Below, piece by piece: positions 9,001 to 58,064 of a DNA stretch of 64,000 nucleotides. The translations under genes and the position numbers were made by a program. The notes beneath the pieces were generated by a model. The model was not told the origin of the DNA, did not search any database, and was given only the letters and a program-made list of their open reading frames with translations. The stretch is from Patiria pectinifera (Eukaryota; Echinodermata; Asteroidea; Valvatida; Asterinidae): positions 12,543,501 through 12,607,500 of the forward strand of contig CM057146.1 in the NCBI GenBank assembly GCA_029964075.1, written 5' to 3'. Position 1 is the stretch's first letter. Every line of letters starts with the position of its first letter.

Positions 9001-11851
9001 AACCTTACGTGCAATAAATCTCACATGAAACAGGTAACCCTCACAAGTGCTCAGAACACGGCAAAGAGTAAACTCGTTAGGCAAGCTAATCCAATGATTA
9101 CGGCAATGATTGCCTCAGTCGTAAAACCCCACCGAATGGTGTCCAACCCACGACAAGCAATCTACCACCGAATCACAGTCTCACTAGCCTCTCAAACCAA
9201 GTTGTACAACTCCTAGCCCTTTTGTTCTAGCATTAATCAAGACACAATAATCAGTCTTAATTTCCCTACTAGATTCCATCTAAATCTTTGACCCCAATTA
9301 TCTTAGACAGTCGACACTCAATAACAGACCTTGAGCTACAACTTCACTCAACATATATTAGATAACACTTAGCTTACTGCTAACTATAACCCGGGGCTAC
9401 AACTCCCGAACCCGGCCGCACCAGAGCGTCCACCGTCAGAGATGAGCTCCTACTCCCGACCGGGGAGTACGCAACAGCAACAAAGACCCCAGCAACGGTA
9501 CCGCGACTTGACTCGTCCCTGAATCCCGAAGCTTGGCTTCTTTCAACTTGGCAACAGCACCAGAACGCGTTCCTACTACATTGACGTCATCTTGCGAACT
9601 CACGAGATGATCTCAGGACCCCACGCTAAAGCATGCTAATTCGCGCACAGCCTTCACAATATGCGTTGCTGATTGGTCGCTGTACACCTTGAATTATTAA
9701 TCTCCTGATCACGCAGAACAATTTATTGCTGATTGGTCCACGCGCACTTTGGCATTATAAGCACGCACCAAATGTCCTAGATCACGCGCATAAATAATTC
9801 CTAGGACTTAGACTCCTACACAAGTCTTCATATACATGTCCCCTGTTTCGTCACAATACTGTGTAGTTCCACTTGTTCAGGTTGACTGACTCTAACCCTA
9901 ACCCTAATCCTATGGGGCGTCGGACCAATAGGACTTCGGACCAATGGGACTTCGGACCAATGGGACTTCGGACCAATGGGACCTCTGATCAATGGGACTT
10001 CGGACCAATGGGACTTCGGACCAATGGGACTTCGGGCCAATGGTACTTCGGACCAATTGGACGTCGGACCAATGAGACGTTTATACCAATGGAACGTATT
10101 GACCAATGAAACTTCGGACCAATGGGACTTCGGACCAATGGGACTTCGGACCAATGGGACTTCGGACCAATGGGACTTCGGACCAATGGGACTTCGGACT
10201 ATAGAGACGTCCCCGAAAAATCAACCCTAAATGCTTTGAATTTATAGAATGACAGCACAGAGTTTACGAAGGATCCCCTCGAAATATAACTGTGGAACTG
10301 CCCTGTGTTTGCGTTTACCTGTCAGATCCAGAACAGTTTCCTCGTGGTCTACTGGAGCAAATACCATGGCCTTCAATAGTACATTTTGTCCGCCTTCATC
10401 TGAAATGTAAGGAATTAAAAAGGTCATCTAAAGCACATGTATACGTATTTAACTGGCTTATCCATTTTGTGCCAGCAACAAAAGAGATATAGCGCACAGC
10501 CGCACATAGGCGGGCGCTTTCGAATTAACATAAACCAAACAGGTGACGTCATCTTAAAAAGAAGATTTTAAGTTTTATATCTAGAGAACTACAGGTTCGA
10601 TTGGGTTGAAACCTTGAAGGTGCATGGACAGGGATGTGTTGTAGACGACAATTGAAATGAGATTATTGTGACGTCATAATGTGATTTTATTCAGATCTTT
10701 GAAATTTTGAAGATTATAATCATATCTCACGAACACAACATGCTCAATTTAAAATAGTCACAACTATCAGCCGAATTGTGTTAGAAAGTTGTGACTCGTT
10801 ATGTCATCCAAAACATGACGTTCTTTTTATATATCGATCATTTGCACTTAAATATACACTTCCACGGAGAAGCATAAACCAGTATCAAAATCATAACGCT
10901 GAAAGGTCCTATGTATTCTGTTCTTAGACAGATAAAGACTTTGTCTTGTTCTTCTTTTTTTGTTTGAATGTATTTGCACAGTACCTAAAACATCTGCAGT
11001 GCTACCCAGTAGAGCTTGCTTGTACTTGACCAGACTTTCATCATCGGCGTCAAGTTCTTGAAGCGTCTGCAAGTCCACTTTTTTGGGCGGTTTGTAGTCG
11101 CGGGTAAGCTCTTCAGTACCCGTCTGAGCTGGCACGGCTTCTGGTTCATCTCCCCTCTTTACTGCACTCCGACAGGGAGAGACAGAATTAACCTTAACGC
11201 TTGTATTACATTATACTACATTTAAGAGGATTCCCTGCTGAAACTGATAATAAAAAAGAACTTTCCGTGGTTTGGGGCAGTACCTTACATAGAGTTGCAG
11301 TAATTTTCTGCAGACTGACGCGGTACAGGGATGCATGGGTTAACACCACTGATCTCTATATAAAGACTGGATAGCTAATAAAGAGCCGCACAATGTACGA
11401 ATTTGACTCCATATTGGTGAGACCGGCTGGTGATCTACAAAGGACAAGTTGCCGTTTTTATAGACAGCATGATGTCTTTTGTAACGTCGCGGTTCACTTG
11501 ACTTATATTTTGACCACCACCACTGACCAAGGTTAACTACAATTTTTTTTAACGTCGTGGTTACTAACATACCGCAAATATCACTTTTTCGGCGTTTTGC
11601 AATGATAATCACTACGGAAATGTGTCACTTTTAGAACATCATAATATGTGTACGTGACCAAAATCCGCGTCAACTGTTGATACAACGCGCGCGTATTTAC
11701 ACGTAGAACGTTCGTATTATACGCGGCCATCTTCGTGAGACCGGGGGCGAATTGGTCAATATGCAAAGTCTTCTGTGTGAATGTTGTATGCATATCCGCT
11801 ATCCAGTTTTTATATAGAGATCAGTGGTTAACACGTACCTTTTCCAGACAT
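2882..11851 (-). CDS. Rho GDP-dissociation inhibitor, copy A (one exon not found)
   Basis: RhoGDI proteins bind prenylated Rho, Rac and Cdc42, extract them from membranes and block GDP release; they act in the cytosol. Coding exons on the minus strand: 11851-11839, 11161-10985, 10399-10319, 6748-6672 and 3078-2882. All have AG/GT borders, and the first four join in phase. Family landmarks are YKPP, LDADDESLVKYK (the GTPase switch-binding arm), VLDLTGDL, VKEGTEYRIKLKF, MVGSYGPK, KGMLSRG, FTDDDK and the terminal WEWSFSVKKDWE. The exon that should encode the I-V-x-G-[LM]-K-Y segment (about 64 nt, phase 0 to 1) was not found between 6671 and 3079, a stretch full of repeats. Without it, exon 6748-6672 and exon 3078-2882 do not join in frame. 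The gene is therefore either functional with an exon I missed, or decaying. With that exon the protein would be about 202 residues, against 204 in human ARHGDIA. Confidence 0.85.
3120..3960. other. RhoGDI A intron: GACTCGA repeats, then no recognised gene
   Basis: At 3126-3205 a short cluster of GACTCGA / TCGAGTC repeats forms small self-complementary segments. An open frame at 3224-3667 (plus strand) has no recognised domain and no relation to RhoGDI beyond a chance GLKY. The rest is unassigned intron. Confidence 0.5.
3990..4450. repeat. Dispersed repeat with CRE palindromes (TGACGTCA)
   Basis: Two units share GGTCCGATTGGGTTG, then A/GGTxCGTACCTAxACC and GGATxTGTTAT (about 4008 and 4147). 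A third, diverged unit lies at 10560-10700. At least four exact TGACGTCA palindromes lie between 4080 and 4345, and two more near 10540 and 10670. TGACGTCA is the CREB/ATF consensus; whether it is used here is unknown. Confidence 0.7.
4590..5890. repeat. Degenerate TGATGCCT satellite array
   Basis: About 1.3 kb built from 10-14 bp pieces around TGATGCCT, with larger units of about 130-170 bp ending in ATGCTCGATGGTCAGTCATGACTT-like segments (at least seven times). It fills much of the intron where the missing RhoGDI A exon should lie. Open frames inside are repeat artefacts. Confidence 0.85.
5900..6515. other. RhoGDI A intron, nothing recognised
   Basis: Unassigned intron between the TGATGCCT array and the exon-4-like remnant. 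Searched on the minus strand for the missing exon without success. Confidence 0.5.
6536..6651 (-). pseudogene. Partial duplicate of RhoGDI A exon 4 (possible alternative exon)
   Basis: Just downstream of true exon 4, the minus strand reads ATTAAAATCAAATTTAGG and then AAATCAAATTCAAG followed by donor GTGAGTAGATTCTAT. This copies the 3' end of exon 4 plus its intron start (GTGAGTTGATTCTAAT). An acceptor TATATTTTCAG at the far end opens a 116-nt frame that enters in phase 1 and leaves in phase 0, like exon 4. Most residues do not resemble RhoGDI. Likely a decayed tandem exon copy. Confidence 0.45.
6672..6748 (-). CDS. RhoGDI A exon 4
   Basis: 77 nt, the same length as in copy B. Acceptor ..GTTCAAAG, donor GTGAGT, phase 1 in and phase 0 out. 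It encodes DLSQLKHNPIVVKEGTEYRI then KLKFR, aligned with DLESFKKQSFVLKEGVEYRI in human ARHGDIA. Forms the first strands of the immunoglobulin-like domain. Confidence 0.9.
6760..8010. other. RhoGDI A intron, no gene seen
   Basis: Intron sequence with a G-rich tract near 7420-7440 and several runs of A or T. Open frames at 6903-7140 and 7336-7715 have no recognisable domain and no splice support. Confidence 0.5.
8470..9050. repeat. Irregular GTAACCCTCA motif array
   Basis: About 20 copies of GTAACCCTCA or AATAACCCTCACA, at uneven spacing of 20-50 bp, interleaved with GTGAACCT and short variable stretches. It lies inside the foldback element. Not a simple tandem repeat. Confidence 0.75.
9889..9912 (-). 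repeat. Short interstitial telomeric repeat
   Basis: CTAACCCTAACCCTAATCCT is about three units of the deuterostome telomere repeat (TTAGGG on the minus strand). It directly abuts the inner edge of the right minisatellite of the foldback element. Confidence 0.6.
10319..10399 (-). CDS. RhoGDI A exon 3
   Basis: 81 nt, acceptor TTACATTTCAG, donor GTAAAC, phase 1 in and phase 1 out. It encodes EGGQNVLLKAMVFAPVDHEE followed by TVLDLT. The matching exon of copy B is 84 nt and ends DIVLDLT. This is the link into the immunoglobulin-like, prenyl-binding domain. Confidence 0.88.
10985..11161 (-). CDS. RhoGDI A exon 2: N-terminal regulatory arm
   Basis: 177 nt, acceptor ..GAGTGCAG, donor GTACTG, phase 1 in and phase 1 out. 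It encodes the flexible N-terminal arm that contacts the GTPase switch regions. DYKPPKKVDL and LQELDADDESLVKYKQALLG match human ARHGDIA (NYKPP, IQELDKDDESLRKYKEALLG). Copy B encodes the same segment in its ATG exon. Confidence 0.9.
11339..11834. mobile_element. hAT-type MITE with 8-bp target duplication
   Basis: The element is 11347-11826 (480 bp). Its ends are CACTGATCTCTATATAAA and the reverse complement TTTATATAGAGATCAGTG, continuing to ACTGGATAGC. It is flanked by GTTAACAC at 11339-11346 and 11827-11834. An 8-bp duplication with CACTG ends fits hAT. It has no transposase. It lies in RhoGDI A intron 1, and the right-hand duplication overlaps the last two bases of the exon 1 donor consensus. 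Confidence 0.88.
11839..11851 (-). CDS. RhoGDI A exon 1 (start codon exon, inferred)
   Basis: ATG TCT GGA AAA G followed by donor GTACGT, with G at -3 of the ATG. The exon ends in phase 1, which is what the next exon needs: acceptor TGCAG, then TA AAG AGG. The join gives MSGKVKRGDEPEAVPAQ. Exon 2 has no in-frame ATG of its own, so an upstream start exon is required. This is the only phase-matching candidate I found. Short and unproven. Confidence 0.5.
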
Positions 11852-12904: not shown

Positions 12905-13410
12905 TCAGGGTGTCGAGCAGTACGCGCCCACCACTACCTGCTCTCTCACCCTGGTATTGGATCATTTGCATGTGCAAGATTTTTGAACACGTATGCAAAT
13001 TAGGAGTAGTCTGGTGCCTGCCTGTGCGTTACATTTGCGTTTGATTTTGTATGCGGTGTCTGGGGTAAAAACAGAATCAATTCGTCGCAGCGCGAGCATG
13101 GCGTGAGTTACGAAAACATGATTTTTATGTTAATTAAACTGTTACAATCTTAACGAGACACCATACAGTATCACATTTCATATTAATATTAACAAACTGA
13201 AAAGGAAATGAATATTTTGAGAAGGCGTGGACGAATGATCGCGAAAACACGTACTGCACGTTGTGAATAACAACACCATGCAAGTACACGATATAAATCC
13301 ATTTCTAGCCAATTGCGGTATCGAATCAGGAATCAGGAAGGAAGTTTCCTATCCAGGGCTTACTATTGGAAACAACGTTGGAAATAAAGTAAGCACTGGG
13401 GACGAGGTTG
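12905..13410. mobile_element. MITE, CAACCTCGTCCCC family, older copy
   Basis: About 506 bp. The right end GCACTGGGGACGAGGTTG and the block GGTGTCGAGCAGTACGCGCC near the left match the 34352-34865 element in reverse order. Its left terminal repeat has diverged and no clean target duplication is seen, so it is an older or truncated insertion. Confidence 0.75.
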
Positions 13411-24340: not shown

Positions 24341-24405
24341 CTGTTGACTATGGCGTGTCAAACGTTGCAATATTCAATATTTTGCAATATATGTTGGATG
24401 TTCAA

Positions 24406-24840
24406 TATGTGTTTGTTATCTTTTACATTTATGTGCGATGTTCAATATAAGTGTGCGATGTTTTTCATTATTTGCGCGATGTTTAATATATTTGTGCGAT
24501 GTTTTTACAATATATGTGCGATGTTCAATATATGTGTGCGATGTTTTACATTTATATGCGATTTTCAATTTATATGTGCGATGTTTTTGACGATATATAT
24601 GTGCGATGTTTTCAATATTATGTTCGATTTTTTGCATTAAATGTGCGATGTTTTTCGATACAATTTTGTGTGTTGTTTTACAATATATTTGCGATATTCT
24701 CAAATATGTGAACAATGTTTTACACATGTTTGACATTTCGAGCTATTTGTATTCGATGTTTCATCGGTATGTCTGCATTCGATCTTTTGCAATATGCATT
24801 TGATATTTCCCTTTTCATTCGATGTTTCTTTAAGAGTCAA
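24406..24840 (+). repeat. GTGCGATGTT minisatellite, left arm
   Basis: Irregular 22-30 bp units with TGTGCGATGTT or TTCAATATATGTGTGCGATG, more than a dozen. The mirror block is 35020-35440. Open frames rich in Met, Cys and Phe on either strand are artefacts of the repeat. Confidence 0.85.
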
Positions 24841-25179
24841 AGTCTGGTTGCTAGACCGCGAAAGTCTGACTATTTTGCCTAAAGTCAGTGTATGAGACGT
24901 CAGGGGATCGCGTAAAGTGATTAGAGCCAGACCTAAACGGTAAAAACCGGAATTGTGGGTAATTCTTTAAGCATACGCAATGCGTTCATCATTGTTTGGG
25001 CAGTACCCCCAGCTGTGCTGTACTACCCATAGTGTTATGTGCATCATCTATGCATTGAGGAGTGCATGACACATGGTCTGAGCTCCAAGGCCGATCTGTG
25101 CACCTGTCCCGTTTAATGATCCAGTTACCTGATAATTTGTTAGCATAAGCTGATGTAAAATTGGGCAAAATTAGATGTT

Positions 25180-25890
25180 TATGAAAAAAATCAAATTGTA
25201 AGGGGTTAACCTTGCATTTTTTTTAGCAAAATCGTGAAAAAATCAGATGTTTCTAAAAAATTGCAGATTGTATGGGGTTAGATGTTTATGAAACATTTCA
25301 AATTGTAAGGGGCGAACATTGCATATTTTAGCGAAATTGGGCAAAATCAGATGTTTCCGAAAAATTTCAGATGTAAGGGATTAACCTTGCTTTTTTGTGT
25401 AATTTTGTAAAGTTAGATGTTGCGAAAAATTTCAATTTAAAAGGGGTTAACCTCTCATTTTTTTAAAGCAAAAATGGGAAAAAATCAAATGTTTCTGGAA
25501 AATTGCAGATTGTAAGGGGTTTGCCTTGCTTTTCGAATAAGATTGGGGAAAATTAGATGTTCATGAAAAAAATTCAAATTGTAAGGGGTTAACCTTGCTT
25601 TTTTTTTTTGGAAAATAGGACACAATCAGATGATTCTGGAAAATTGCAGATTGTTAGGGCTTAACCTTGTATTTCTAGCAAAATTGGGCAAAAAGAAATG
25701 TTTTATGAACATTTTAAATTGTAAGAGGTGTACCTTGTATATTTAGTAAAATTTGGCAAAATCAGATTTGTATGAAAAATCTAAAATGGTAAGGGGTTAA
25801 CCTTGCTTTTTTAGCACAAATTGGAGCATATTTTACTAAAATTGGGCAAAATCAGATGCTTCTAAAAAAATCCAGATGTAAAGTTTCCGC
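25180..25890 (+). repeat. 68-bp satellite block 1, left arm
   Basis: About ten units of the form AAGGGGTTAACCTTGC, ATTTTTAGCAAAATTGGG, CAAAATCAGATGTTTCTGG and AAAATTGCAGATTGT, with point and length variation. The mirror block is 33440-34180. Confidence 0.88.
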
Positions 25891-26299
25891 AAAAACAGCT
25901 GTTGAAAAAGAGCCCAATGTTGAACTTTACTGAGTCTGAGGTCTATCGAGGGGACGGTCCTTATTTCAACTCCCGGAGATTCGCTGACAGTCTCTATTTT
26001 TCTTTTTAAGAAAGTCGAAATAGCTGAAGAGGGAGGTGAGAATCTATATGTGCCCAGATACAAAGAAATCTACGCGTCTGCCTTTTGAAAATACACAATT
26101 GCGGTGTCCTTTGTTGCGTAATGATCCGCCTAGCACACGACTGTTTTGCACATTAGGCTGTGTTATGAAGCTTCCTAACAAGCCAAACATACTGGGCTCA
26201 TTATATCGACTTGTTTTTACCCATTAAGGTAAAGCAAATGGACCCAGTAATCCTCCTGGCGCGTTTGCTTACCTATAAAGACAACTTTTCTCAGTTTAA

Positions 26300-26395
26300 G
26301 GAAAATTCTAAGGTAACGAAATGGCCGAGTGGTTACGATTCGTCGTCCACGGTTAGCGGGGTCCCGGGTTCGAATCCCGCTGGTGTCTTTTTGGT
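26300..26395 (+). repeat. tRNA-derived segment (SINE-like), left arm
   Basis: Contains TGGCCGAGTGGTTA (A box) and GGGTTCGAATCCC (exact B box) at proper spacing, but the 5' flank cannot pair with the 3' TGGTGTC to form an acceptor stem. It is therefore a tRNA-derived repeat rather than a functional tRNA gene. The right-arm counterpart has lost the A box. Confidence 0.7.
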
Positions 26396-27289
26396 TTTTA
26401 ACGTATGAGTTCAATTATTCACTATAAGAGATTTAATTTCCCGTCGTAAAGTACCAACAGTACCTTAGCTTAATCGGTAAGCACTGCTGCTGGTACTGTC
26501 CGCGAGTTCCAGGTTGGCGCCTTCGTACAGGTTCAGGGCATGTGGTCCACTCGGAGGATCAGGGCTTAGGGGCCGCCCTGTTCCTCCCTTAGCTCTTTGC
26601 TTTTACATGGTGCCTGGCCCTCCGGGGTTATATGGATGGATAGGGAAGGAAGTGTGTATTGGTCGGGGACGCCGAGACCCCGGAAGAGAACTAAGGGATC
26701 GGCTGGGGCATTGTTATGGCTCAGACCGATCCCTGAAAGCTTGACTAGCACATAACTTTTTGATTTTTTTACCCTCTATCTTTTATACTTTGGTTTAGTT
26801 TGATATCTACAGCTGCTCGGCAGGTCTACGGGTAGTATCAAAATTGAAACAAAGGTGTATGTCATAAATCAATGAATATTTCATTAATGATTAATATAAT
26901 GACGCGATTGCCAATTGACTTAAGAAACGCCATAAATTATACCGGGAAAGAATAAAGATGTACATTGTAATATAAATATATTTATACATCTTTCAAATAA
27001 CGTGTCTTTAATTGTGAGCATTCCAAACAATACAGTAATTCGCAATGGTATTAGAATGGTATATGATCATAGCACGATCAATGCGTCTCTATTAAATTAA
27101 AAATATATACTTTAGGCCCCTATGTGTGAAATATTCTTTGATTGACTATGAGCATTCCATACGAATGAGTTAATTCGCAAAATATAGCAACAACAAAAGA
27201 GAAAAGAAAAAGAGAAAAATCCTTTACCCTAAAAACTGGAAAAATATTTGTTTTAAAAAAGTCAAATGGAACACTTCATGTATTGATTG

Positions 27290-30200
27290 AACAGTTTGCA
27301 AAGAGTTAGCCTTACATTTTAGCAAAATTGGGAAAAATCAGATGTTTCTGGAAAATTGCAGCTTGTAAGGGGTTAACCTTGCATTTTTAGTAAAATTTAG
27401 ATGTTTATGAAACATTTCCAATAGTAAGGGGTGAACCTTGCATTTTTTAGCGAAATTGGGCAAAATCAGATTTTTCTGGAAAATTTCAGATTGTAAGGGG
27501 TTAACCTTGCTTTTGTAGTAAAATTTGGCAAAATAACAAATTGTAAGGGGTTTACCTTTCTTTTTTAGTAAAATTGGGAAAATTTAAATGTTTATGAAAA
27601 ATTTCAAATTGTCAGTGGTTAACCTTGCATTTTTTAGCAAAATCAGGTGTTTATGGAAAATTTCAGAGTGTAAGGGGTTAACTTTGCATTTTTAGCAAAA
27701 TTGGGCAAAATCAGATTTGTATGAAAAATCAAAAATTGTAAGAGGTTAACCTTGCCAAATTAGGGCAAAATCAGATGTTTCTGGAAAATTGCAGATTGTA
27801 AGGGGTTATAACCTTGCTTTTTTAAGCGAAATTGGGCAAAATCAGATGTTTCTCGAAAATTGCAGATTGTAAAAGGTTAACTTGGCATTTTTAGCATAAC
27901 TGGGCAAAATCAGATTTATATGAAAAATCTCAAATTGTAAGGGGTGAACCTTGTATTTTTAGCGAAATTGGGCAAAATCAGATCTTTCTGGACAATTTCA
28001 GATTGTAAGGGGTTAACCTTGCTTTTTTAGTGATATTTGGCAAAAATAAGATAGTTGCAGATTGAAAGGGATTAACCTTGCATTTTTAGCAAAACTGGGC
28101 AATATCTGATTTTTATGAAAAATCTCAAATCGTAAGGGGTGAACCTGGCATTTTTAGCAAAATTGGGCAAAATCAAAAGTTTCTGAAAAATTTCAGATGT
28201 AAGGGGGTTATGGCCAAAAAAAAAAAAATATTCGGTCTCTGGTCAGACCAAAGTTCCAGAATTGACGCGGCCACGCGGCTTTTTTTTTTTTTCTTCTTTT
28301 CTTCAAGCTTGGATTGTGCAGACAAGGTGTGGTACTATTTTGCTTTTTTGGTGTCCTCATGTACATTGGTGTCCTCCATAATTTGCCTTGGTGCTTTCGA
28401 TCATTTGCCTTGGTGCAATTTCCCATTCCTTGGTGCTCTTTGGTAAAAAAAAATGAGGAGGTGCGGAAATAGAGGGCGCTGTTGGAGCTACCGCGGAACA
28501 TTTTGAAAAAAAAAAGATCGACGCGCATGCTTAAAATCGACGTGCGCGCTGACCAGAGACCGAATTATTTTTTTTTTTTGGCCTAACCTTGCTTTTTTAG
28601 TAAAATTGGGCAAATTTAAATGTGCATGAAAAATTTCAAATTATTTGGGGTTAACCTGGCATTTTTTTAGCAAAATACGGCAAAACCAGGTGTTAATGGA
28701 AAATTTCAGATTGTAAAGGGTTCACCTTGCATTTTTAGCAAAATTGGGAATAATCAGATTTGTATGAAAAATCAAAATTGTAAGAGGTTAACCTTTGCCA
28801 AAATTAGGGCAAAATCAGATGTTTCTGGAAAATTGCAGATTAAAAGGGGTTAACCTTGCATTTTAAGCAAAATTGGGCAAAATGAGATTTTAATGAAAAA
28901 TCTCAAATTGTAAAGGGTGAACCTTGCATATATAAGCAAAATTGGGCAAAATCAGATGTTTTTGAAAAAAAATCCGATGTAATTTGGTAAAAATTAGGTG
29001 TTTATGAAAAATTTCAAATTGTAAGGGGTTAACCTTGCATTTTGTAGCAAAATAGGGCAAAATCAGGTGTTTATGAAAAATGTCAGATTGTAAGGGATTC
29101 ACCTTGCATTTTTAGCAAAATTGGGAAAAATCAGATTTGTATGAAAAATCAAAAAACGGTAAGGGGTTAACCTTTGCCCAATGAGGGCAAAATCAGATGT
29201 TTCTGGAAAGTTGCAGATTGAAAGGGGTTAACCTTGCATTTTTAGCAAAACTGGGCAATATCAGATTTTAATGAAAAATCTCAAATTGTAAGGGGTGAAC
29301 CTTGCATTTTTAGCAAAATTGGGCAAAATCAGATGTTTCTGAAAAATTTCAGATGTAAGGGGATTAACCTTGCTTTTTTAGCAAAATTGGGAAAAATCAG
29401 ATTTGTAAGAAAAATCAAAAATTGTAAGGGGTTAACCTTTGCCAAATTAGGGCAAAATCAGATGTTTCTGGAAAATTGCAGATTGAAAGGGGTTAACCTT
29501 GCATTTTAAGCAAAATTGGGCAAAATGAGATTTTTATGAAAAATCTCAAATTGTAAGGGGTGAACCTTGCATATATTAGCAAAATTGGGCAAAATCAGAT
29601 GTTTCTGAAAAACATTCCGTTGCAAGGAATTAACCTTACTTTTTTTTTTAGTGAAATTTGGTAAAAATTAGATGTTTTATGAAAAATTTCAAATTGTAAG
29701 GGGTTCAGCTTGCATTTGTTTTTAACAAAACAGGGCAAAATCAGATGTTTATGGAAAATTTCAAATTGTAAGGGGTTAACCTTGCATTTTATCAAAATTG
29801 GGCAAAATCAGATGTTTTTGGAAAATTTCTGATGTAAGGGATTACCCTTGCTTTTTTAGTGAAATTTGGCAAAGTTAGATGTTATGAAAAATTTCAAATT
29901 ATAAAGGGTTAGCCTTGCATTTTTTAAGCGAAATTGGGGGGAAAAATCTGATGTTTCTGGAAAATTGCAGATTGTAAGGGGTTAACCTTGCTTTTTGAAT
30001 AAGATTGGGAAAAATTAGATGTTCATGAAAAAAATTCAAATTGTAAGGGGTTAACCTTGCATTTTTTTAGCAAAATAGGACACAATCAGATGATTCTGGA
30101 AAATTGCAGATTGTTAGGGCTTAACCTTGTATTTCTAACAAAATTGGGCAAAAAGAAATGTTTATGAAAAATTTTAAACTGTAAGAGGTGTACATTGTAT

Positions 30201-30315
30201 ATTTAGTAAAATTTGGCAAAATCAGACAAAAATCTAAAATGGTAAGGGGTTAACCTTGCTTTTTTAGCAAAATTTGGAGCATATTTTGCAGAATCAGATG
30301 CTTCTATAAATCCAG
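27290..30315 (+). repeat. 68-bp satellite block 2, left arm
   Basis: About 40 degenerate units of the same satellite as 25180-25890, interrupted by a MITE at 28211-28583. The last unit (30270-30320) repeats the block-1 end (GGAGCATATTTT, AGATGCTTCTA, AATCCAGATG). Orientation flips just after it. Confidence 0.85.
28209..28585. mobile_element. TA-flanked MITE with GGCCAAAAAA ends, copy 1
   Basis: The element is 28211-28583, flanked by TA in the satellite word GGTTAACC. The ends read GGCCAAAA...TCGGTCTCTGGTCAG and its inverse. TA duplication suggests Tc1/mariner. The interior (GGTGTCCTCAT, TTTGCCTTGGTGC) matches the 39129 copy in inverse orientation. Confidence 0.85.
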
Positions 30316-30329
30316 ATGTAAATTTTCCG

Positions 30330-32040
30330 CTAAAAATACAAGGTTCACCCCTTACAATTTGAGATTTTTCATATTAATCTGATATTGCCCAGTTATGCTA
30401 AAAATGCCAAGTTAACCCCTTACAATCTGCAATTTTTAAGAAACATCTGATTTTTCCCAATTTCGCTTAAAGAAAGCAAGGTTAACTCCTTTCAATCTGC
30501 AATTTTCCAGAAACATCTGATTTTGCCCTAATTTGGCAAGGTTAACCCCTTACAATTTTTTATTTTTTATACAAATCTGATTTTGCCAAATTTTGCTAAA
30601 ACTGGAAAATTAACCCCTTACAATCTGAAGTTTTCCATAAACACCTGATTTTGCCCTATTTTGCTAAAAATGCAAGGTTAAGGCAAAAAAAGTCTCCGGT
30701 TTCTGGTATGCGCGCGCGTCGCCTTAGCCATGCGCGTCGGCAAAATGAAAAAGTGTTTTTTCAATGAAAGATGATGTCTCAAAACCGCCAAACTCACTGG
30801 TTTGATTGGAATCCTGCTACTGCACAATTTTAAAGTGTTTTTAGATGGGGTTATGATCGATAATAAGCTTCATGTGGCCTCACTGGACTCCCATATATTT
30901 GCACTAAGTTTAGTCGGGCACCATTTGCAGTCATCAGCCGACATTTGAAGCAAAAAAGTCAGGTAAAAAAAAAAAAAAGCCGCGTCGCCGCACCACTTTT
31001 TGGACAAGCTCCATACCAGAAACCGGAGACTTATTTGTTTTGGCCTAACCACTGACAATTTGAAATTTTTCATAAACATTTAAATTTACCCAATTTTACT
31101 AAAAAAGCAAGGTTAACACCTTACAATTTGAAATTTTCCATAAATATCTGATTTTGCCCTGTTTTGCTTTAAAAAAAATGCAATCTGAACCTCTTACAAT
31201 TTAAAATTTTTCCCAAAAACATCTAATTTTTACCAAATTTCACTAAAAAAAAGGTAAGGTTAATTCCTTACATCGGATTTTTTTTCAGAATCTGATTTTG
31301 CCCAGTTTTGCTTAAAATGCAAGGTTAACCCCTTTCAATCTGCAATTTTCAAGAAACATCTGATTTTGCCCTAATTTTGCCCTAAGTGAACCCTTTACAA
31401 TCAGACATTTTGCATGAACACCTGGTTTTGCCGTATTATATTTTGCTAAAAAATGCAAGGTTAACCCCTAACAATTTGAAATTTTCAGATGTAAGGGGGT
31501 TAACCCCTTTCAATCTGCAATTTTCCAGAAACATCTGATTTTGCCCTAATTTGGCAAGGCTACAATTTTTGATTTTTCATACATATCTGATTTTGCCCGA
31601 TTTTGCTAAAAATGCAAAGTAAACCCCTTACCATCTGAAATGTTTCCATAAACACCTGATTTTGCGCTATTTTGCTAAAAAATGCAAGGTTAACCAATGA
31701 CAATTTGAAATTTTTCATAAACATTTAAATTTTCCCAATTTTACTAAAATAGAAAGGTTAACCCCTTACAATTTGAAATTTTTCATACACATTTTATTTT
31801 GCCAAATGTTACTACAAAAGCAAGGTTAACCCCTTACAATCTGAAATTTTCCAGAAAGATCTGATTTCGCCCAATTTCGCAAAAAAATGCAATGTTCACC
31901 CCTTACAATTTGAAATGTTTCATAAACATCTAAATTTTACTAAAAATGCAAGGTTAACCCCTTACAAGCTGCAATTTTCCAGAAACATCTGATTTTTCCC
32001 AATTTTGCTAAAATGTAAGGTTAACCCCTTGCAAACTGTT
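30330..32040 (-). repeat. 68-bp satellite block 2, right arm
   Basis: The same satellite as the left arm in inverse orientation (CAGAAACATCTGATTTTGCCC, GCTAAAAATGCAAGGTTAACC). About 20 units, interrupted by a MITE at 30681-31045. Confidence 0.85.
30679..31047. mobile_element. TA-flanked MITE, divergent copy 2
   Basis: The element is 30681-31045, with TA at 30679-30680 and 31046-31047, inserted in the satellite word GGTTAACC. The ends AGGCAAAAAAAGTCTCCGG and CCGGAGACTTATTTG...GGCC are related to copies 1 and 3, but the interior differs. Its position does not mirror copy 1, so it is an independent insertion. Confidence 0.8.
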
Positions 32041-32939
32041 ATATCAATACATGAAGTGTCCCATTTGGTTTTTTTTTTTAAACAAATTATTTTTTCCAGT
32101 TTTTAGGGTAAAGGAATTTTCTCTTTTTCCTTTCTCTCTTTTGTTGTTGCTATATTTTGCGAATTAACTCATTCGTATGGAATGCTCATAGTATGGAATG
32201 CTCATATTTCACACATAGGGGCCTAAATTATATATTTTTTTGAATTTAATAGAGACGCATTGATCGTGCTATCATATACCATTCTATTACTATTGCGAAT
32301 TACTGTATTGTTTGGAATGCTCATAATTAAAGACACGTAATTTGAAAGATGTATAAATATATTTATATTACAATGTTCATCTTTATTCTTTCCCGGTATA
32401 ATTTATGGCGTTTCTTAAGTCAATTGGCAATCGCGTCATTATATAATGATAGTCAAATTGATCAAACGAAACTCCGTTTTGATTATAGTCAATTATGAAA
32501 TATTCATTGATTATGACATATACCTTTGTTTCAACTTAAATACTACCCATAGACCTGCCGAGCAACTGTAGATATCAAACTAAACCAAAGTATAAAAGAT
32601 AGAGGGTAAAAAAAATCAAAAAGTTATGTGCTAGTCAAGAATGCCCCAGCCGATCCCTTAGTTCTCTTCCGGTCTCTCCGTCCCCCCGACCAATACACTT
32701 CCTCTTCCCTATCCATCCATATAACCCGGCCAGGCACCATGTAAAAGCAAAGAGCTAAGGAAGGGGGGGGCAGCCCCTGCCCCCTGATCCTCCGATCCTG
32801 GACCACTGAACCTGTACCTGGCGCCAGGCGCCAACCTGGAACTCGCGGACAGTACCAGCAGCAGTGCTAAGCTAAGGTACTGTTGTACTGTTGGAGTTAA
32901 ATAAAACTTAAATCTCTTATATAGAATAATTGATACGTA

Positions 32940-33012
32940 AAAACAAAAAGAAAAAAGACACCAGCGGGCCAGAACCCCGGACCCCGGACACCGTGGACGA
33001 CGAATCGTAAAC
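32940..33012 (-). repeat. tRNA-derived segment, right arm, A box lost
   Basis: Counterpart of 26300-26395. Relative to the left arm it lacks about 36 nt including TGGCCGAGTGG; the junction falls in TTTACGATTCG, where TTTA and TTA give microhomology. The B box is also altered (GGGTTCTGGCCC). Confidence 0.7.
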
Positions 33013-33439
33013 TGAGAAAAGTTGTCTTTAGGCCTATAGGTGAGCAAACGCGCCAGGAAGATTACTGGGTCCATTTGCTTTACCTTAATGGGTAAAAACA
33101 AGTCGATATAATGAGCCCAGTGTGTTTGGTTTGTTAGGAAGCTGCATAACACAGCCTAATGTGCAAAACAGTCGTGTGCTAGGCGGATCATTACGCAACA
33201 ATGAACGCCGCAATTGTGTATTTTCAAAAGGCAGACGCGTAGATTTCTACTCTTTGTATCTGGGCACATATAGATTCTCACCTCCCTCTTCAGCTATTTC
33301 GACTTTCTTAAAAAGAAAAATAGAGACTGTCAGCGAATCTCCGGGACTTGAAATAAGGATCGTCCCCTCGATAGACCTCAGACTCAGTAAAGTTCAACAT
33401 TGGGCTCTTTTTCAACAGCTGTTTTTGTGGAAACTTTAC

Positions 33440-34180
33440 ATCTGGATTTTTTAAAAGCATCTGATTTTGCCCAATTTTAGTAAAATATGCTCCAAATTTT
33501 GCTAAAAAAGCAAGGTTAACCCTTTACCATTTTTGTTTTTACATACAAATCTGATTTTGCCAAACTTTACTAAATATACAAGGTACACCTCTTACAATTT
33601 AAAATTTTTGATAAACATTTCTTTTTGCCCAATTTTGCTAGAAATACAGGCTTAAGCCCTAACAATCTGCAATTTTCCAGAATCATCTGATTGTGTCCTA
33701 TTTTGCTTTAAAAAAAATGCAAGGTTAACCCCTTACAATTTGAATTTTTTTGATGAACATCTAATTTTTCCCAATCGTATTTAAAAAGCAAGATTAACCC
33801 CTTACAATCTGCAATTTTCCAGAAACATCAGATTTTTTACCCAATTTCGCTTAAAAAATACAAGGTTAACCCCTTATAATTTGAATTTTTTTCATAAACA
33901 TCTAACTTTGCCAAATTTCAATAAAAAAGCAAGTATAATCCCTTACATCTGAAATTTTTCGGAAACATCTGATTTTGCCCAATTTCGCTAAAATATGCAA
34001 TGTTCACCCCTTACAATTTGAAATGTTTCATAAACATCTAACCCCATACAATCTGCAATTTTCCAGAAACATCTGATTTTTCCCGATTTTGCAAAAAAAA
34101 TGCAAGGTTTTTTAACCCCTTACAATTTGATTTTTTTTCATAAACATCTAATTTTGCCCAATTTTACATCAGCTTATGCT
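33440..34180 (-). repeat. 68-bp satellite block 1, right arm
   Basis: Inverse copy of 25180-25890, about ten units, starting with the shared TTTACATCTGGATTTTTT and ATGCTCCAAATTTTGC segments. Confidence 0.85.
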
Positions 34181-34342
34181 AACACATTATCAGGTAACTG
34201 GATTATTAAACGGGACAGGTGCACATCGGCCTTGGAGCTCAGACCATGTGTCATGCACTCCTCAATGCATAGATGATGCACATAACACTATGGGTAGTAC
34301 AGGCACAGCTTGGGGTACTGCCCAAACAATGCATGATGAACG

Positions 34343-34874
34343 CATTGCGTACAACCTCGTCCCCAGTGCTTACTTTATTTCCAACCGTGTTCCCAATAGT
34401 AAACCCTGGATAGGAAACTTTCTTCCTGTATCCTGATTGGATACCGCAATTGGCTAGTAATGGATTTTTATCGTGTACTTGGTGCTATATATTCACAACG
34501 TGCAGTACGTGTTTTCGCGATCATTCGTCCACGCCTTCTCGAAAATACTAATTTCCTTTCCAATTTGCTCATATTAATATGAAATATGATACTGCATGTT
34601 GTCTCGATAAGATCGTAACAGTTTGATTTCAAAAATCGTGTTTTCGTAACTCACGCCGTGCTCGCGCTGCTACGAATTGACTCTGTTTTTACCCCAGACA
34701 CCGCATACAAAAACAAACGCTAATGTGTAACGCATATCCAGGCACCAGACTGTTCCTCATTTGCATACGTGTGGAAAAATCTTGCACATGCAAATGATCC
34801 AATACCAGGGTGAGAGAGCAGGTAGTGGTGGGCGCGTACTGCTCGACACCCTGGGGACGAGGTTGCATTGCGTA
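34343..34874. mobile_element. 514-bp MITE, CAACCTCGTCCCC family, with 9-bp target duplication
   Basis: The element is 34352-34865, with ends CAACCTCGTCCCCAG / CTGGGGACGAGGTTG, flanked by CATTGCGTA at 34343-34351 and 34866-34874. The left arm has the uninterrupted site (TACGCAATG, about 24974-24983). A related, older copy is at 12905-13410. A 9-bp duplication fits MULE-like elements; no transposase is present. Confidence 0.93.
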
Positions 34875-35019
34875 TGCTTTAAGAATTACCCACAATTCCG
34901 GTTTTTACCGTTTAGGTCTGGCTCTAATCACTTTACGCGATCCCCTGACGTCTCATACACTGACTTTAGGCAAAATAGTCAGACTTTCGCGGTCAAGTAA
35001 CCAGACTTTGACTCTTAAC

Positions 35020-35440
35020 GAAACATCGAATGAAAAGGGAAACATCAAATGCATATTAATTGCAAAAGATCGAATGCAAACATATTGATGAAACATCGAA
35101 TACAAATAGCTCGAAATGTCAAACATATATGTGTAAAACATTGCTCACATATTTGAGAATATCGCAAATATATTGTAAAACAACACACAAAATTGCACAT
35201 ATGTATCGTCAAAACATCGCATATTGATATAAATTGAAAATCGCATATAAATGTAAAACATCGCACACATATATTGAACATCGCACATATATTGTAAAAC
35301 ATCGCACAAATATATTAAACATCGCGCAAATAATGAAAAACATGGCACACTTATATTGAACATCGCACATAAATGTAAAAGATAACAAACACATATTGAA
35401 CATCCAACATATATATTGCAAAATATTGAATATTGCAACG
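35020..35440 (-). repeat. GTGCGATGTT minisatellite, right arm
   Basis: Inverse of 24406-24840 (AACATCGCACATAT units), with slightly fewer units. Homology ends at the GTCAAACG / ACTATGG boundary near 35455. Confidence 0.85.
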
Positions 35441-35730
35441 TTTGACACGCCATAGTTGACGGATGTGTTTGTGCATGGGGCGTACCTACGTACGTCACTA
35501 CGTGCAGACAAAGCACACATGCAAGGGTCGTTGAGGCTATTCCGGCAATACAACTAGTTGGCGCGGCGCGCGGTGTAGCGGGAACAAGCTCGTTTGGGGC
35601 ACAAGCTGACAGCCTTGGTCAAGGCTAGGTACGTGTACTTTCCCGGCTCAGTTGCTTTACTATGTAACATTTACAGTTCACGTGGGCTACAATAAATGCA
35701 CTCAAATCAAATCCTAGATATCCTAGCACA

Positions 35731-36426: not shown

Positions 36427-36930
36427 CCATGTCCATGGTCCGACTAGCCCCAAAATGTGGCCTATTTACTGGACTGCCTCGTAAACATAGGCCACACACC
36501 GACCATGTACAAAAACGTGTCGACGGAGCCAAATTTTGATTTTCACATTTGGGCTTACTTTGTAGGTTTTTTTTGCTTTAGAAGCATTCTCACCCTCTAT
36601 ATAGGCTAATCAGAAAGTGCTGCCTTTTTCAGATGTCCATTTTTCGTGAAATTTCCAGATTCATTTTTACACGTTTTCGTATCAAAATTTCAACATGAAA
36701 TTTCACAAAAATTAGACATCTGAAAAAGGCAGCACTTTCTGATTAGCCTATATAGAGGGTGAGAATGCTTCTAAAGCAAAAAAAACCTACAAAGTAAGCC
36801 TAAATGTGAAAATCAAAATTTGGCTCCGTCGACACGTTTTTGTACATGGTCGGTGTGTGGCCTATGTTTACGGAGGCAGTCCAGTAAATAGGCCACATTT
36901 ATGGGGCTATGGTCCGACATGTCCGATATG
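36427..36930. mobile_element. Near-perfect hairpin (foldback MITE), arms over 200 bp
   Basis: From CCGACTAGCCCCA to about 36660, the sequence recurs reverse-complemented from about 36705 to TGGGGCTATGGTCCGA. Over a stretch of about 160 nt I find roughly four differences between the arms. The loop is about 45 nt. No coding content. Confidence 0.88.
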
Positions 36931-39126: not shown

Positions 39127-39492
39127 TAAGGCCAAAAAAAAATATACTCGGTCTCTGGTCAGCGCGCGCGTCAGTTTTAATCCTGCGCATCAACCTTTTT
39201 TTTCCTTCAAATTAACACAGAAGCTACAACAGCCCCCCACCTTCCTCAAATTTTCAAATTTTTTGGACAAAGAAATTGGGAAATTGAAATTGCACCAAGG
39301 CAAATGATAAAGGGCAAATGGAGGACACCAATGTATAATGAGGACACAAAAAAGCAAAATAGTACCCACCTTGTCTGTACAATTGAAGCTTGGAAAAAAA
39401 AAAAGCCACCCCCCCCCAAAAAAAACGCGTCGCCGCACCAATTCTGGAACTTCGGTCTGACCAGAGACAGATTATTATTTTTTTTGGGCCTA
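39127..39492. mobile_element. TA-flanked MITE with GGCCAAAAAA ends, copy 3
   Basis: The element is 39129-39490, flanked by TA. The ends GGCCAAAAAAAAATATACTC and GGTCTCTGGTCAG are inverted at the right end. The interior matches copy 1 (28211-28583) in opposite orientation. Confidence 0.85.
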
Positions 39493-39629
39493 ACAAACGA
39501 CCATTGTAATGAACATTTTTGTCTCGCCTGGACTTTGTGCAATCACAATGTCTGTATGTAATATGTGTATTATTATGTACCGGTAGTACGTGGTATTTTG
39601 GTTCAAGTTTCAAGGAATTGGTCTCATTT

Positions 39630-46870: not shown

Positions 46871-46903
46871 ACAGGCACAAACTTCTGATAAAATTTCCCT
46901 AAA

Positions 46904-47081
46904 ATGGCTGAAACGGAAGACACCGCCGCGCCTTCAGGGAGCGACACAACTGACGGAGCGCCGCTCGCTTACAAGGCCCCGGCGCCAAAATCACTGAAAG
47001 AAATACAAGAGTTGGATAAAGACGATGAGAGTCTGGCGAAATACAAGAAATCACTGCTCGGGGAAGGTGTTGAGGCAGAAG
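46904..47081 (+). CDS. RhoGDI B exon 1
   Basis: 178 nt, 59 codons plus one base, donor GTTGGT. Encodes the acidic start MAETEDTAAP and the regulatory arm. A 15-bp minisatellite begins 46 nt after the donor. Confidence 0.95.
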
Positions 47082-50000
47082 GTTGGTGGAAAGGGGCAGT
47101 CTGGGCACCAGACTTCATCTGGCATGTCTGGGTGATTCAGATCTGGGTGATTCAGATCTGGGTGATTCAGATCTGGGTGATTCAGATCTGGGTGATTCAG
47201 ATCTGGGTGATTCAGATCTGGGTGATTCAGATCTGGGTGATTCAGATCTGGGTGATTCAGATCTGGGTGATTCAGATGGGAGGCCTGACCTCATATCACA
47301 TGTTCATATGAGGACAGGCCATGCCCTAATCTTATTTGTTTAACCCTAAAGGGGCCGGGTTATTTTGACCATCTCTCAGCCGGGGGATTCCGCCCCCCCC
47401 CTAAGATCTCGGCCATGGAGTGACGAAAAATTTTGAAACTCGACACATGCATAGAGAAACTCTTCCTAAACATACTTAAGAAATTTCATGACTATAGGTC
47501 AAAGGGTTTTGGAATTATGGCTAATTAATTATTCATATGCACGAATGGCAATTCTGCTCTGTGTACACGACGTATATGTGAAAATTCAGTTTTCACGGCG
47601 TAGCGGCGCGTGATGAAAATATTTTCTCTGCGCGGCAACCCGTTGTCCGATTTTTATGTTTTTGGTATCAAAAGATGCGCAAAGCTCGAGGCTAAAAAGT
47701 CATAACAGCTCGGGTCGCGAAAAAATTTTTTTTAGAGGCTATCACGAAAAATGTTGAGGGGGGGGCGGATTCCGCCCCGGCCCCTTTAGGGTTAATGCAT
47801 TAACGCTCCTATGCGAACATACAGTCTGTGCCAAGTTGTCCTGTTTTCAACAGTTAACAGCTCCAAGCCTACATTAAGCAGGATTGACTGGCTGTGACTG
47901 TTTATGTAACTTGATATGTTGAGCTATACTCTGACTGTAGGTGATTGATAAGCCAGCTGTGCCTATAACTTGTCTGCTTTTGTCTGTTGACTGAATTTGA
48001 CTAGTCAAAGCGCTTGCTTGAAATACGATCTGACTGTCGGTGACATACGCCTATGTAAAAGGCATGGCAGGGGAAGAGGATTGAATTATGTTACTGTCTG
48101 TGACTGCTCAGATGGCAGTAGGGGTAACGATATTGCCCCTTACTGTGATTTGGCTTATATCATGAAAGAACTTCATCAGGCTGGTAAAATTTCAACTTTG
48201 TAAATGAATTTTCTATAAAACACAGCCAATTACTTAAGTAGTTTCATTGACGTTTTGACTAGTTTCACTAGACATCCTCAGAACGAAGCACCACCAGTGA
48301 TGTGGCGTGCTAATTGTAATCAGTCAGAACAGCTGCCAGTGCCCTATTTGTTCAAGGGGGGGATTTTCAAATTAAGAATGACCTCTGTCTCTCGGCTACG
48401 TCAACCAAGCAAGAACATGCTGGCCTACTCTGAATCTGCCTTGGGATTTTTTTTAATGTTAGGCTTTGCTCAGACGAAAGCTCTGTCATAATTTGTTTGC
48501 AATACTCTGTCATTTTTTATTTTATTTTTATTTATTTTATTTCTTATTTTAACTGGGTAGCCCATTCAGTGGAATCCACTAATCTCTCAGGGGTCCCAGT
48601 AAAGAGAAGACAATGTGAAGAAATTACAGTTTTAGAGGTGGGAGGAAAAGCCCAGAAGAGTATTCTGAGGAAAACCCACGGAATCAGGTAGGGACTGAAA
48701 ACCCAATCCACATATTGGCCCAGGCAGGATTCGAACCCGGGTCACAGCGGTGGAAGGCGAGGAAAGCACCGCTACGCCAACCTAACTCCCCGTACACCAA
48801 CCTGACTCCCTGTAATACATAATTTTGCATTATGTATACTGTGGATTGTTTTCAGAAACAAAATTGTAAAAGCTTGATTTTCGTAGCGGAGTTGGAATAT
48901 TGAACAGGCTTATATATATATAGACCCTTTCCAATAGGCAGCCATCTTTGAGCTGATTTGATTTGAGTAATAAAGGTAGAGTTTATCATTTGCAGCTATC
49001 CAAAAAGTTGGTGACAAAATTATTGTTCCAAAGCATACTCAGTTTAATGATAGTAATGGCACTTAACTCCACTGTGAAATTATTCTTTCTGGCATGCTGT
49101 CATTTCGAAGAAAACAACAAAAAATAGTAATATGCAAAGATGTGTCTAAAAACGTATTTTTAAAATTCCCTTTAGTACATGCATGACATGTAGTCTGTGT
49201 TTAATTCGGCGAAGACGTGAATGGGCACGCACAAGCGTTGACACGATGCACACGTACCGGTACGCGCGGTTGCTATAATTCATCAGTTCAGCGCGTGACA
49301 TTGCGTAGCTGCAATCAGCTGAATGAGAACATGTCCCGGACACCGATTTCTGGCGCAATTCAAAACATGACTCGGCAACTTTCAAAATGGACTCAAAATC
49401 CTTGAATATTGTTTTCTTAGAATATACAACATTCACAGAGTTAATGAAAACTTCATCGGGTTAATTGTTGAGCACCCTTCTTTAAATACTGAGTACTTTT
49501 ATTGCTTCAAATGAACAAAAATGCTCAAATGGCAAATGATATGCTCTATCTTCAATGAATGCACAAGAGATACAACTGATGCACATACCTGTGCAACAAC
49601 ATAATTCACCTCCAATGTGGCGGCAATGCACAAGAACTATTGGAAAATAAATTATGTTTGACATTTTTCTTTCAGCGACTGGGGAGGGTCCCAAAGTCAC
49701 GCTGCAGGAGTTAGCTCTTCTTGTGGAAGACCATGATGATATCGTGTTGGATTTAACAGGTAAGTTTGAGTGTATCGTTATTACTTAATTTCACAGAACA
49801 ATATGGGGTCATACATAAACTAGCAACTGCTGGGAAATTTGAACAAACAGCAAAAGCATTTACTTTGGAGTAAAAGCATTAACCCAAACTCCCTAGACAT
49901 TTTTGCTAGAATGCAGCCTCAATCTTACAAAATATTCTAACTATCTCCGTGTAAAATTGCATACAGCCTTAATCCTCTAAAATTGTCCGCTATTTCTTGA

Positions 50001-57806: not shown

Positions 57807-58064
57807 GAAGGGCAAGACCTAATTTGATTTACATCACCCCGACGCCAAATTCCATCTTGTGAATAGTTAATGCGGTACCCGCTGCTATGTGATTCGAACC
57901 AGCCAACCGATCCCGTTAGCTTGGTGGTCGAGTGGTAAGGCATCTGCACTAGAAAGCAGGAGGTCATGGGCTCGAGTCCCACCCGAGTGATTTTTTCCAA
58001 CTTTTCACTCAGGAGGTAACACACTGAGTATATACGTCGGTGAAGGGCAAGACCTAATTTGATT
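57807..58064. repeat. tRNA-like SINE insertion with 23-bp direct repeats
   Basis: GAAGGGCAAGACCTAATTTG(ATT) at 57807-57829 recurs exactly at 58042-58064, flanking 212 bp. Inside, 57917-57992 folds partly like a tRNA: GGTCGAGTGG D arm, CTGC-ACTAGAAA-GCAG anticodon arm, GGGCTCGAGTCCC T arm, weak acceptor. The loop resembles tRNA-Ser(AGA), but variable arm and T loop are wrong for a working tRNA. ACAGGAACTTG blocks (57791 and 58072) lie outside each repeat. Confidence 0.65.

Follow-up and report, generated by a model that had tools for sequence, protein, structure and literature searches.

Among described transposons, close counterparts of the giant palindromic element analysed here include two elements of Drosophila. 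In the passages that portray it, Tetris, a foldback element of Drosophila virilis (PMC4079207), resembles the present family in that it is apparently non-autonomous, carries tandem repeats inside its inverted repeats, has no conserved ORF, is tied to satellite DNA and heterochromatin, and has inverted-repeat ends in common with a short MITE, DAIBAM. It differs in its target-site duplications (TSDs), which are given as 8-10 bp as against 6 bp here, and in number, with three structurally complete copies as against 26 inward-facing pairs of exact ends here, and the two likely belong to different superfamilies. Galileo of the P superfamily, as far as the relevant parts of PMC3573991 describe it, likewise has long, internally repetitive terminal inverted repeats (TIRs) of variable length, the longest being in non-autonomous copies, and the tandem repeats of one arm expand independently of those in the other, but its TIRs reach about 1.26 kb whereas the arms here are about 4-6 kb, and it has 7-bp target sequences rather than 6-bp TSDs. 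In its termini the family is like IS3EU (GingerRoot), for which TA..TA ends with a TSD of usually 6 bp (PMC10045372) and, specifically, TAYGG..CCRTA ends with a 6-bp TSD (PMC12730594) are given, whereas the portions of these two papers that deal with the group mention no foldback or satellite-bearing form.

Architecture of the window element

The window is the whole stretch of DNA that was analysed, 64,000 nucleotides long, and its comparison with itself reveals a real palindrome, the arms of which align over long segments at 80-95% identity (24347-24611 with 35456-35189 at 95%; 24974-26298 with 34351-33008 at 93% over 1352 nt). The element occupies positions 24349-35454, begins with TATGGCGTGTCAAACG, closes with the reverse complement of TATGGCGTGTCAAACG, and has on either side a perfect 6-bp TSD, GTTGAC, read from the plus-strand sequence at 24343-24348 and 35455-35460. 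Its blocks lie in mirror order. From the outside inwards, a terminal 20/40-bp minisatellite is followed by unique core U1, a block of 68-bp satellite, two further unique cores (U2 and U3) and a longer array of the 68-bp satellite. On the left arm (plus strand), the terminal module (24349-24660) consists of the TATGGCGTGTCAAACG end followed by 20/40-bp minisatellite of the ATATATGTGCGATGTTCAAT type, and next to it lie U1/U1b (24661-25160), the first 68-bp satellite block (25161-25829), U2 (25830-26300), U3 (26301-27250) and the left half of the main 68-bp array (27251-30274), which is broken at 28207-28584 by a foreign repeat with a diverged copy (77%) at 39129-39494. The satellite switches strand at the centre (30275-30328), near 30.3 kb. 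On the right arm (minus strand), the right half of the main array (30329-32075, with 68-73-bp units at 30329-30681, 31047-31251 and 31572-32038) leads to U3 (32076-33007), which is diverged and about 85% identical to the other U3 copies compared, then to U2 (33008-33490), the first satellite block (33491-34165), U1 (34865-35196) and the terminal module (35197-35454) of minisatellite and CGTTTGACACGCCATA end. The right-arm core is split by a nested short transposon with ends AACCTCGTCCCCAG (34352-34864), a related copy of which is located at 12906-13410. Hence long inverted repeats make up most of the element and contain internal tandem repeats, as in Foldback elements.

An earlier note on this DNA had described an 11-kb palindrome resembling a Foldback-type transposon, with minisatellite, satellite and tRNA-like blocks mirrored on both arms. 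The pairing of the arms confirms the palindrome, the limits proposed for it (24343-35460) coincide exactly with the element plus both 6-bp TSDs, and the mirrored minisatellite and satellite blocks agree with the block order given above; these parts stand, as does the Foldback reading, while the tRNA-like label does not. That label may have referred to the left-arm U1/U1b region, in which no tRNA was found. ARAGORN detects no tRNA anywhere in the window, the sole Rfam match there at the gathering threshold is a tRNA that lies beyond the element (57918-57990), and a permissive scan of the element yields eight sub-threshold matches, none of them to the tRNA family and one of them a 15-nt fragment of the tmRNA model. 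A tRNA origin of the unique core is accordingly rejected.

Copies, shared ends and target-site duplications

The 613.5-Mb genome contains 185 termini of the family end pair TATGGCGTGTC (92 and 93, at no more than three mismatches), while a reversed control gives none, and the consensus of 60 distinct terminal stretches is TATGG..CCATA. A variant end pattern, examined for other subfamilies of ends, has six matches. Where exact termini are neighbours less than 25 kb apart, 26 of the 32 pairs face inward and delimit lengths of 3.5-20.9 kb. TSDs were scored in 16 copies with both ends read, namely the window element, C3:11849k, C6:12303k and all but two of 15 fetched elements, the two left out being C10:11252k, with one end outside the fetched stretch, and C14:20908k, with an end below the match limit. 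An exact 6-bp TSD is present in 13 of the 16 (the window element and 12 of 15 others), and 15 of the 16 match at five or more of the six bases, as against 5 of 240 mispaired flanks. Two copies match at five bases, and the C7 copy lacks a TSD whether scored with the inner of its two right ends, as in the count, or with the outer. For 12 of the 13 copies with an exact TSD, six is the only length that matches exactly, and the remaining one also matches at a length of three. No 6-mer recurs among these 13 TSDs, which are spread over eight contigs, so that independent insertions are common.

The unique cores were compared among arms that retain at least 85% of a module, and they differ little between elements, with mean identities of 96.4, 97.3 and 96.8% between elements and 97.4, 98.1 and 96.9% between the arms of one element. 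The greater likeness of the two arms is only slight, and gene conversion within elements, of which it would be the mark, was set aside. The left-arm U2 of the window element is 97.8% identical to a counterpart in another element and 97.4% to its own right arm, while the corresponding values for U3 are 99.5 and 84.9%; U1 was left out of this comparison of arms because its right copy is split. Two long copies (C6:13895k and C10:11252k) include several kb unlike the window element, and one array of the C10 copy has 84.5 units, compared with 18.9 in the longest row of the window element.

We propose that the window element is very likely a single insertion from a foldback-type family of non-autonomous DNA transposons, the many copies of which are dispersed and have common ends and TSDs. 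The earlier note had held that other copies with the same outer ends would make it a mobile element, and many unlinked copies with 6-bp TSDs do exist. Its alternative, that a segment around a satellite was duplicated in inverted orientation at this one locus, would account for a true palindrome, and element ends copied together with their flanks do occur on C2, but it is highly improbable given the 185 similar termini genome-wide, a palindrome that ends exactly at a 6-bp TSD, and left-arm U2 and U3 sequences that are closer to other elements than to their own right arm. An assembly artefact, in which two loci were joined or an inverted repeat was collapsed, is likewise highly improbable. The locus is known from the assembly alone, but many copies repeat this architecture between flanks and TSDs of their own, the arms are about 3-15% apart in U2 and U3, and the nested insertion is one-sided. 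The shared termini and the TSD statistics therefore lead us to reject both a one-off inverted duplication and a misassembly for this locus.

Transposase and superfamily

The earlier observation that no transposase is visible extends to the copies read, as a Pfam scan of 30 of the 36 frames that reach 130 aa in 20 fetched stretches recognised none belonging to the family; the other six frames lie in C14:30775k and C18:11653k, and genes of shorter exons could escape such a frame search. The domains above the cut-off (BEL/Pao, Gypsy, DIRS-like and SCAN) are in three long copies (C14:21255k, C14:30775k and C18:11653k), the DIRS-like call being a reverse transcriptase frame that adjoins a phage-integrase frame just under its cut-off, and the remaining scanned frames gave no family or sub-cut-off noise. 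The large ORFs of these three copies were rejected as the family's own transposase and assigned to nested retrotransposons. The genome has 87 matches to the integrase core rva_4, some in open frames, but none of them is within 35 kb of the 137 (of 185) element ends tested, so that the link between rva_4/IS3EU genes and the family is putative. The one such gene that was read, L059, has nothing in common with the element over 6 kb of sequence, and its four exon frames, compared by tblastn with 16 elements, gave a best E of 0.3, so that no IS3EU-like exon remnants were seen. No phage relatives were found, as expected for a eukaryote.

With no transposase gene found between the ends, the superfamily is read from the ends and the TSD length alone, and since the consensus ends conform to the TAYGG..CCRTA printed for IS3EU and the TSD is an exact 6 bp in 13 of 16 copies, we infer a non-autonomous, IS3EU-like family that is moved in trans. 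It is unlikely that this foldback is moved by a different superfamily (Polinton/Maverick, Mutator-like or one with a transposase not yet described), even though no rva_4 gene is near the ends tested. Mutator TSDs are commonly 8-10 bp, and Polinton/Maverick elements have AG..CT ends and polymerase and integrase genes. The 6-bp TSD, the only exact length in nearly all exact copies, is outside the former range, and the TATGG..CCATA ends do not fit the latter group, nor were polymerase or integrase domains present in the two larger frames that the window element contains. In favour of these superfamilies, the printed passages concerned assign most foldback elements to Mutator, give 4-10 bp for MuDR and IS256 jointly, a range that includes 6 bp, and ascribe 6-bp TSDs to Polinton as well.

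A typical copy of the family comprises two multi-kilobase inverted repeats, each composed of a minisatellite at the end, unique cores and arrays of 68-bp satellite. An IS3EU/GingerRoot integrase-like transposase encoded elsewhere would bind the terminal module, perhaps at several sites offered by the minisatellite, and would insert the element with 6-bp staggered cuts, while the internal satellite arrays may grow and shrink and help to set element length.

Chromosomal distribution and significance

The exact ends cluster in the middle of chromosomes, with none of 2000 simulations as tight, in a test limited to 117 exact termini (51 and 66) that reduce to 85 loci, 72 of them on contigs of known size. 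These zones are probably pericentromeric, and most but not all loci of the 13 exact TSDs fall in crowded zones. The build-up might reflect target choice or slower loss. It is also conceivable, if somewhat doubtful, that it arose mainly by duplication of blocks already there rather than by insertion bias or retention; the flanks of six ends on C2 agree at about 93-99.7% where they align, so that some copies did arise by segmental duplication, and C20 has a dense group at 25.05-25.17 Mb, but the diversity of the exact TSDs argues against this as the main source. Far more speculative, and improbable as it stands, is a role of the family as a satellite-delivery vehicle, in which an IS3EU-type transposase would put whole palindromic satellite arrays around the centromeres of many chromosomes, the arrays would expand locally (as in the C20 cluster and the C10 array) and become a source of pericentromeric or centromeric satellite, and selection for a role in heterochromatin or the kinetochore might act on the palindromic form itself.

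If the superfamily assignment holds, the foldback architecture arose in a superfamily for which no published example turned up in the literature searched, and the arms here exceed those of Galileo several-fold. One paper in that literature, an oyster satellite survey (PMC8268682), reportedly contains both terms, IS3EU and foldback. With this family it becomes testable whether satellites reach centromeric regions by way of transposons, and long palindromes are in addition rearrangement hotspots. The inward pairs, chromosome-sized contigs and a miniature terminal-module relative also make the growth of inverted repeats by satellite uptake testable. This relative, 383 bp long, is largely two terminal modules, with a TSD that matches at only three of six bases by eye.

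The palindrome and its dispersed relatives

Self-comparison resolves an inverted repeat with mirrored modules from 24347 to 35456 of the window, as expected from the mirror-order blocks described in the earlier note, whose coordinates (24343-35460) correspond to the element plus both target-site duplications (TSDs). The left element end, TATGGCGTGTCAAACGTTGCAATATTCAATATTTTG, starts at 24349, its reverse complement forms the right end, finishing at 35454, and GTTGAC abuts the element on the outer side of both ends. The tRNA-like sequence also proposed for the palindrome found no support in tRNA and RNA-family scans. The arms differ by a nested short transposon in the right arm (34352-34864), a foreign repeat in the left arm (28207-28584), divergence of the unique core module U3 in the right arm, and satellite arrays that are unequal between the arms. 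The nested transposon has AACCTCGTCCCCAG ends and a duplication of about 10 bp, and relatives of it lie at 12906-13410 of the window and inside another genome stretch (L058).

A search of the 613.5-Mb genome (1020 contigs) that tolerated up to 3 mismatches located 185 instances of the 24-base end, 92 in forward and 93 in reverse orientation, against 0 for the same end read backwards as a control. Of these, 117 are exact (51 + 66). Among adjacent exact ends separated by under 25 kb, the two ends point inward in 26 pairs, which span 3527 to 20857 bases, and do not in 6. An exact 6-bp TSD is present in 13 of the 16 copies with both ends read, each a distinct 6-mer; two others agree at 5/6 bases and the copy on contig C7 has no TSD, while mispaired flanks agree at 5/6 bases or more in only 5/240 cases. 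Other copies with the same outer ends, which the earlier note had named as the sign of a mobile element, therefore do exist, and with their TSDs they identify the palindrome as one. A 601-base left-arm piece has at least 99 genome matches (best 40 of 533 candidates scored) and a right-core piece at least 69 (best 40 of 194). Core identity between copies averages 96-97% (range 83.9-99.5%), the low values involving the right-arm U3 of the window element, and on this identity we take the family to be fairly young. An older relative on C5, at about 80% identity, matches the element in the order of its terminal module and U1 across the 1 kb read, and a 383-bp miniature on C8 is largely two terminal modules.

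Superfamily and source of the transposase

Complete IS3EU families are described as always having TA..TA ends and usually 6-bp TSDs (PMC10045372), and fungal IS3EU elements with TET genes as having 6-bp TSDs and TAYGG..CCRTA ends (PMC12730594). The element matches both of these printed descriptions in its ends and TSD, and we infer that it belongs to IS3EU. A search with rva_4, the Pfam integrase-core profile that we take to be associated with IS3EU, gave 87 matches, 0/87 of them within 35 kb of an element end (137 ends listed, of 185). The rva_4 gene at C18:11588k has several exon-like frames bearing the core, and its 6-kb surroundings have no sequence in common with the element; these results speak against the listed copies being autonomous. 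No transposase was recognised in the element copies read, which agrees with the earlier note. The lack of an rva_4 gene near the listed ends also speaks for a non-autonomous foldback element mobilised by some other superfamily, a reading that we consider unlikely, the ends and TSD length being those described for IS3EU.

We strongly favor a giant foldback-type, non-autonomous family, probably with an IS3EU/GingerRoot-like transposase supplied in trans. Its copies have inserted with a 6-bp duplication, have a palindromic architecture in common, vary in array length and carry nested insertions, and in those read no coding capacity of the element's own was recognised. An IS3EU-like transposase would mobilise them in trans, the terminal minisatellite may, by analogy with Galileo, offer putative repeated binding sites, and copies would then accumulate in heterochromatin. 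The Drosophila foldback elements Tetris and Galileo are similar in structure and satellite link; new here are the size, with arms several kb long, the superfamily to which the element apparently belongs, and its clustering in zones. No such family was evident among the titles and abstract openings listed from the literature, a Repbase or Dfam entry being possible; one paper, an oyster satellite survey, contains both "IS3EU" and "foldback."

Contig C7 (44.85 Mb) holds 38 of the 87 rva_4 matches, well above its genome share. At C22:6691250-6703064, two rva_4 exon frames with equal scores are oppositely oriented at a distance of 11.5 kb and may mark a palindrome with a transposase gene. One exon frame of an rva_4 gene, that in genome stretch L059, has a weak tblastn match in the window at 60478-60687 (E 1.4e-4, 37% over 73 aa), with stops in the one frame translated at that site.

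Cargo, satellite and chromosomal zones

The large open reading frames of three long copies (C14:21255k, C14:30775k and C18:11653k) are BEL/Pao, DIRS-like and Gypsy retrotransposon genes, presumably later insertions. There are 36 frames 130 aa or longer, of which domain scans covered 30, and the smaller scanned frames had no domain above cut-off. Two other long copies (C6:13895k and C10:11252k) contain several kb dissimilar to the window element, without large frames. The 68-bp satellite contributes to length variation, one array in a C10 copy reaching 84.5 units, and a 271-base stretch of it has at least 437 genome matches (best 40 of 819 candidates scored). Among these best 40, 33 have a listed element end within 15 kb, 4 are in a cluster on C20 and 2 are near element cores, and C5:15664k is the one not accounted for by ends or cores; from these best candidates we take the element to be the main carrier of the satellite. 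The C20 cluster (25.05-25.17 Mb), a dense local group of element ends and satellite matches, is possibly a nascent element-derived array.

On contigs of known size, 66 of 72 loci lie at 0.30 to 0.76 along the contig, and the median nearest-locus distance is 0.33 Mb vs 1.65 Mb simulated, with 0/2000 simulations equally tight. When the most loci within any 3 Mb were compared with 500 simulations per contig, C18 (11/13 loci; simulated maximum 7), C2 (8/9; maximum 5) and C1 (5/5; maximum 4) exceeded every simulation, C6, C8, C13 and C14 equalled the maximum, C10, C15 and C21 were only mildly raised, and C19 was not raised; C5, C7, C9 and C12 have fewer than 3 loci each. Segmental duplication accounts for part of this clustering, because six C2 ends have flanks in common (93-99.7% over aligned parts, up to 1.5 kb), one of them in part only. 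From their positions on the contigs, we read the element zones as probably pericentromeric.

Other features of the window

The window spans C18:12543501-12607500 and also contains a fragment of a reverse transcriptase and two pieces that resemble Rho-GDI. The Rho-GDI N-terminal pieces lie in opposite orientation at 10848-11210 (-) and 46892-47311 (+), the latter continuing into 10.1 perfect tandem copies of a 15-bp unit. A near-perfect hairpin at 36445-36909 (189-bp arms, 95%, 15-nt loop), about 1 kb beyond the right end of the element, is probably a MITE. The 16-bp minisatellite GTCCGAAGTCCCATTG occurs at 8037-8171 and 9912-10199 in inverted orientation with 1.7 kb between, possibly a second, smaller foldback-like element.
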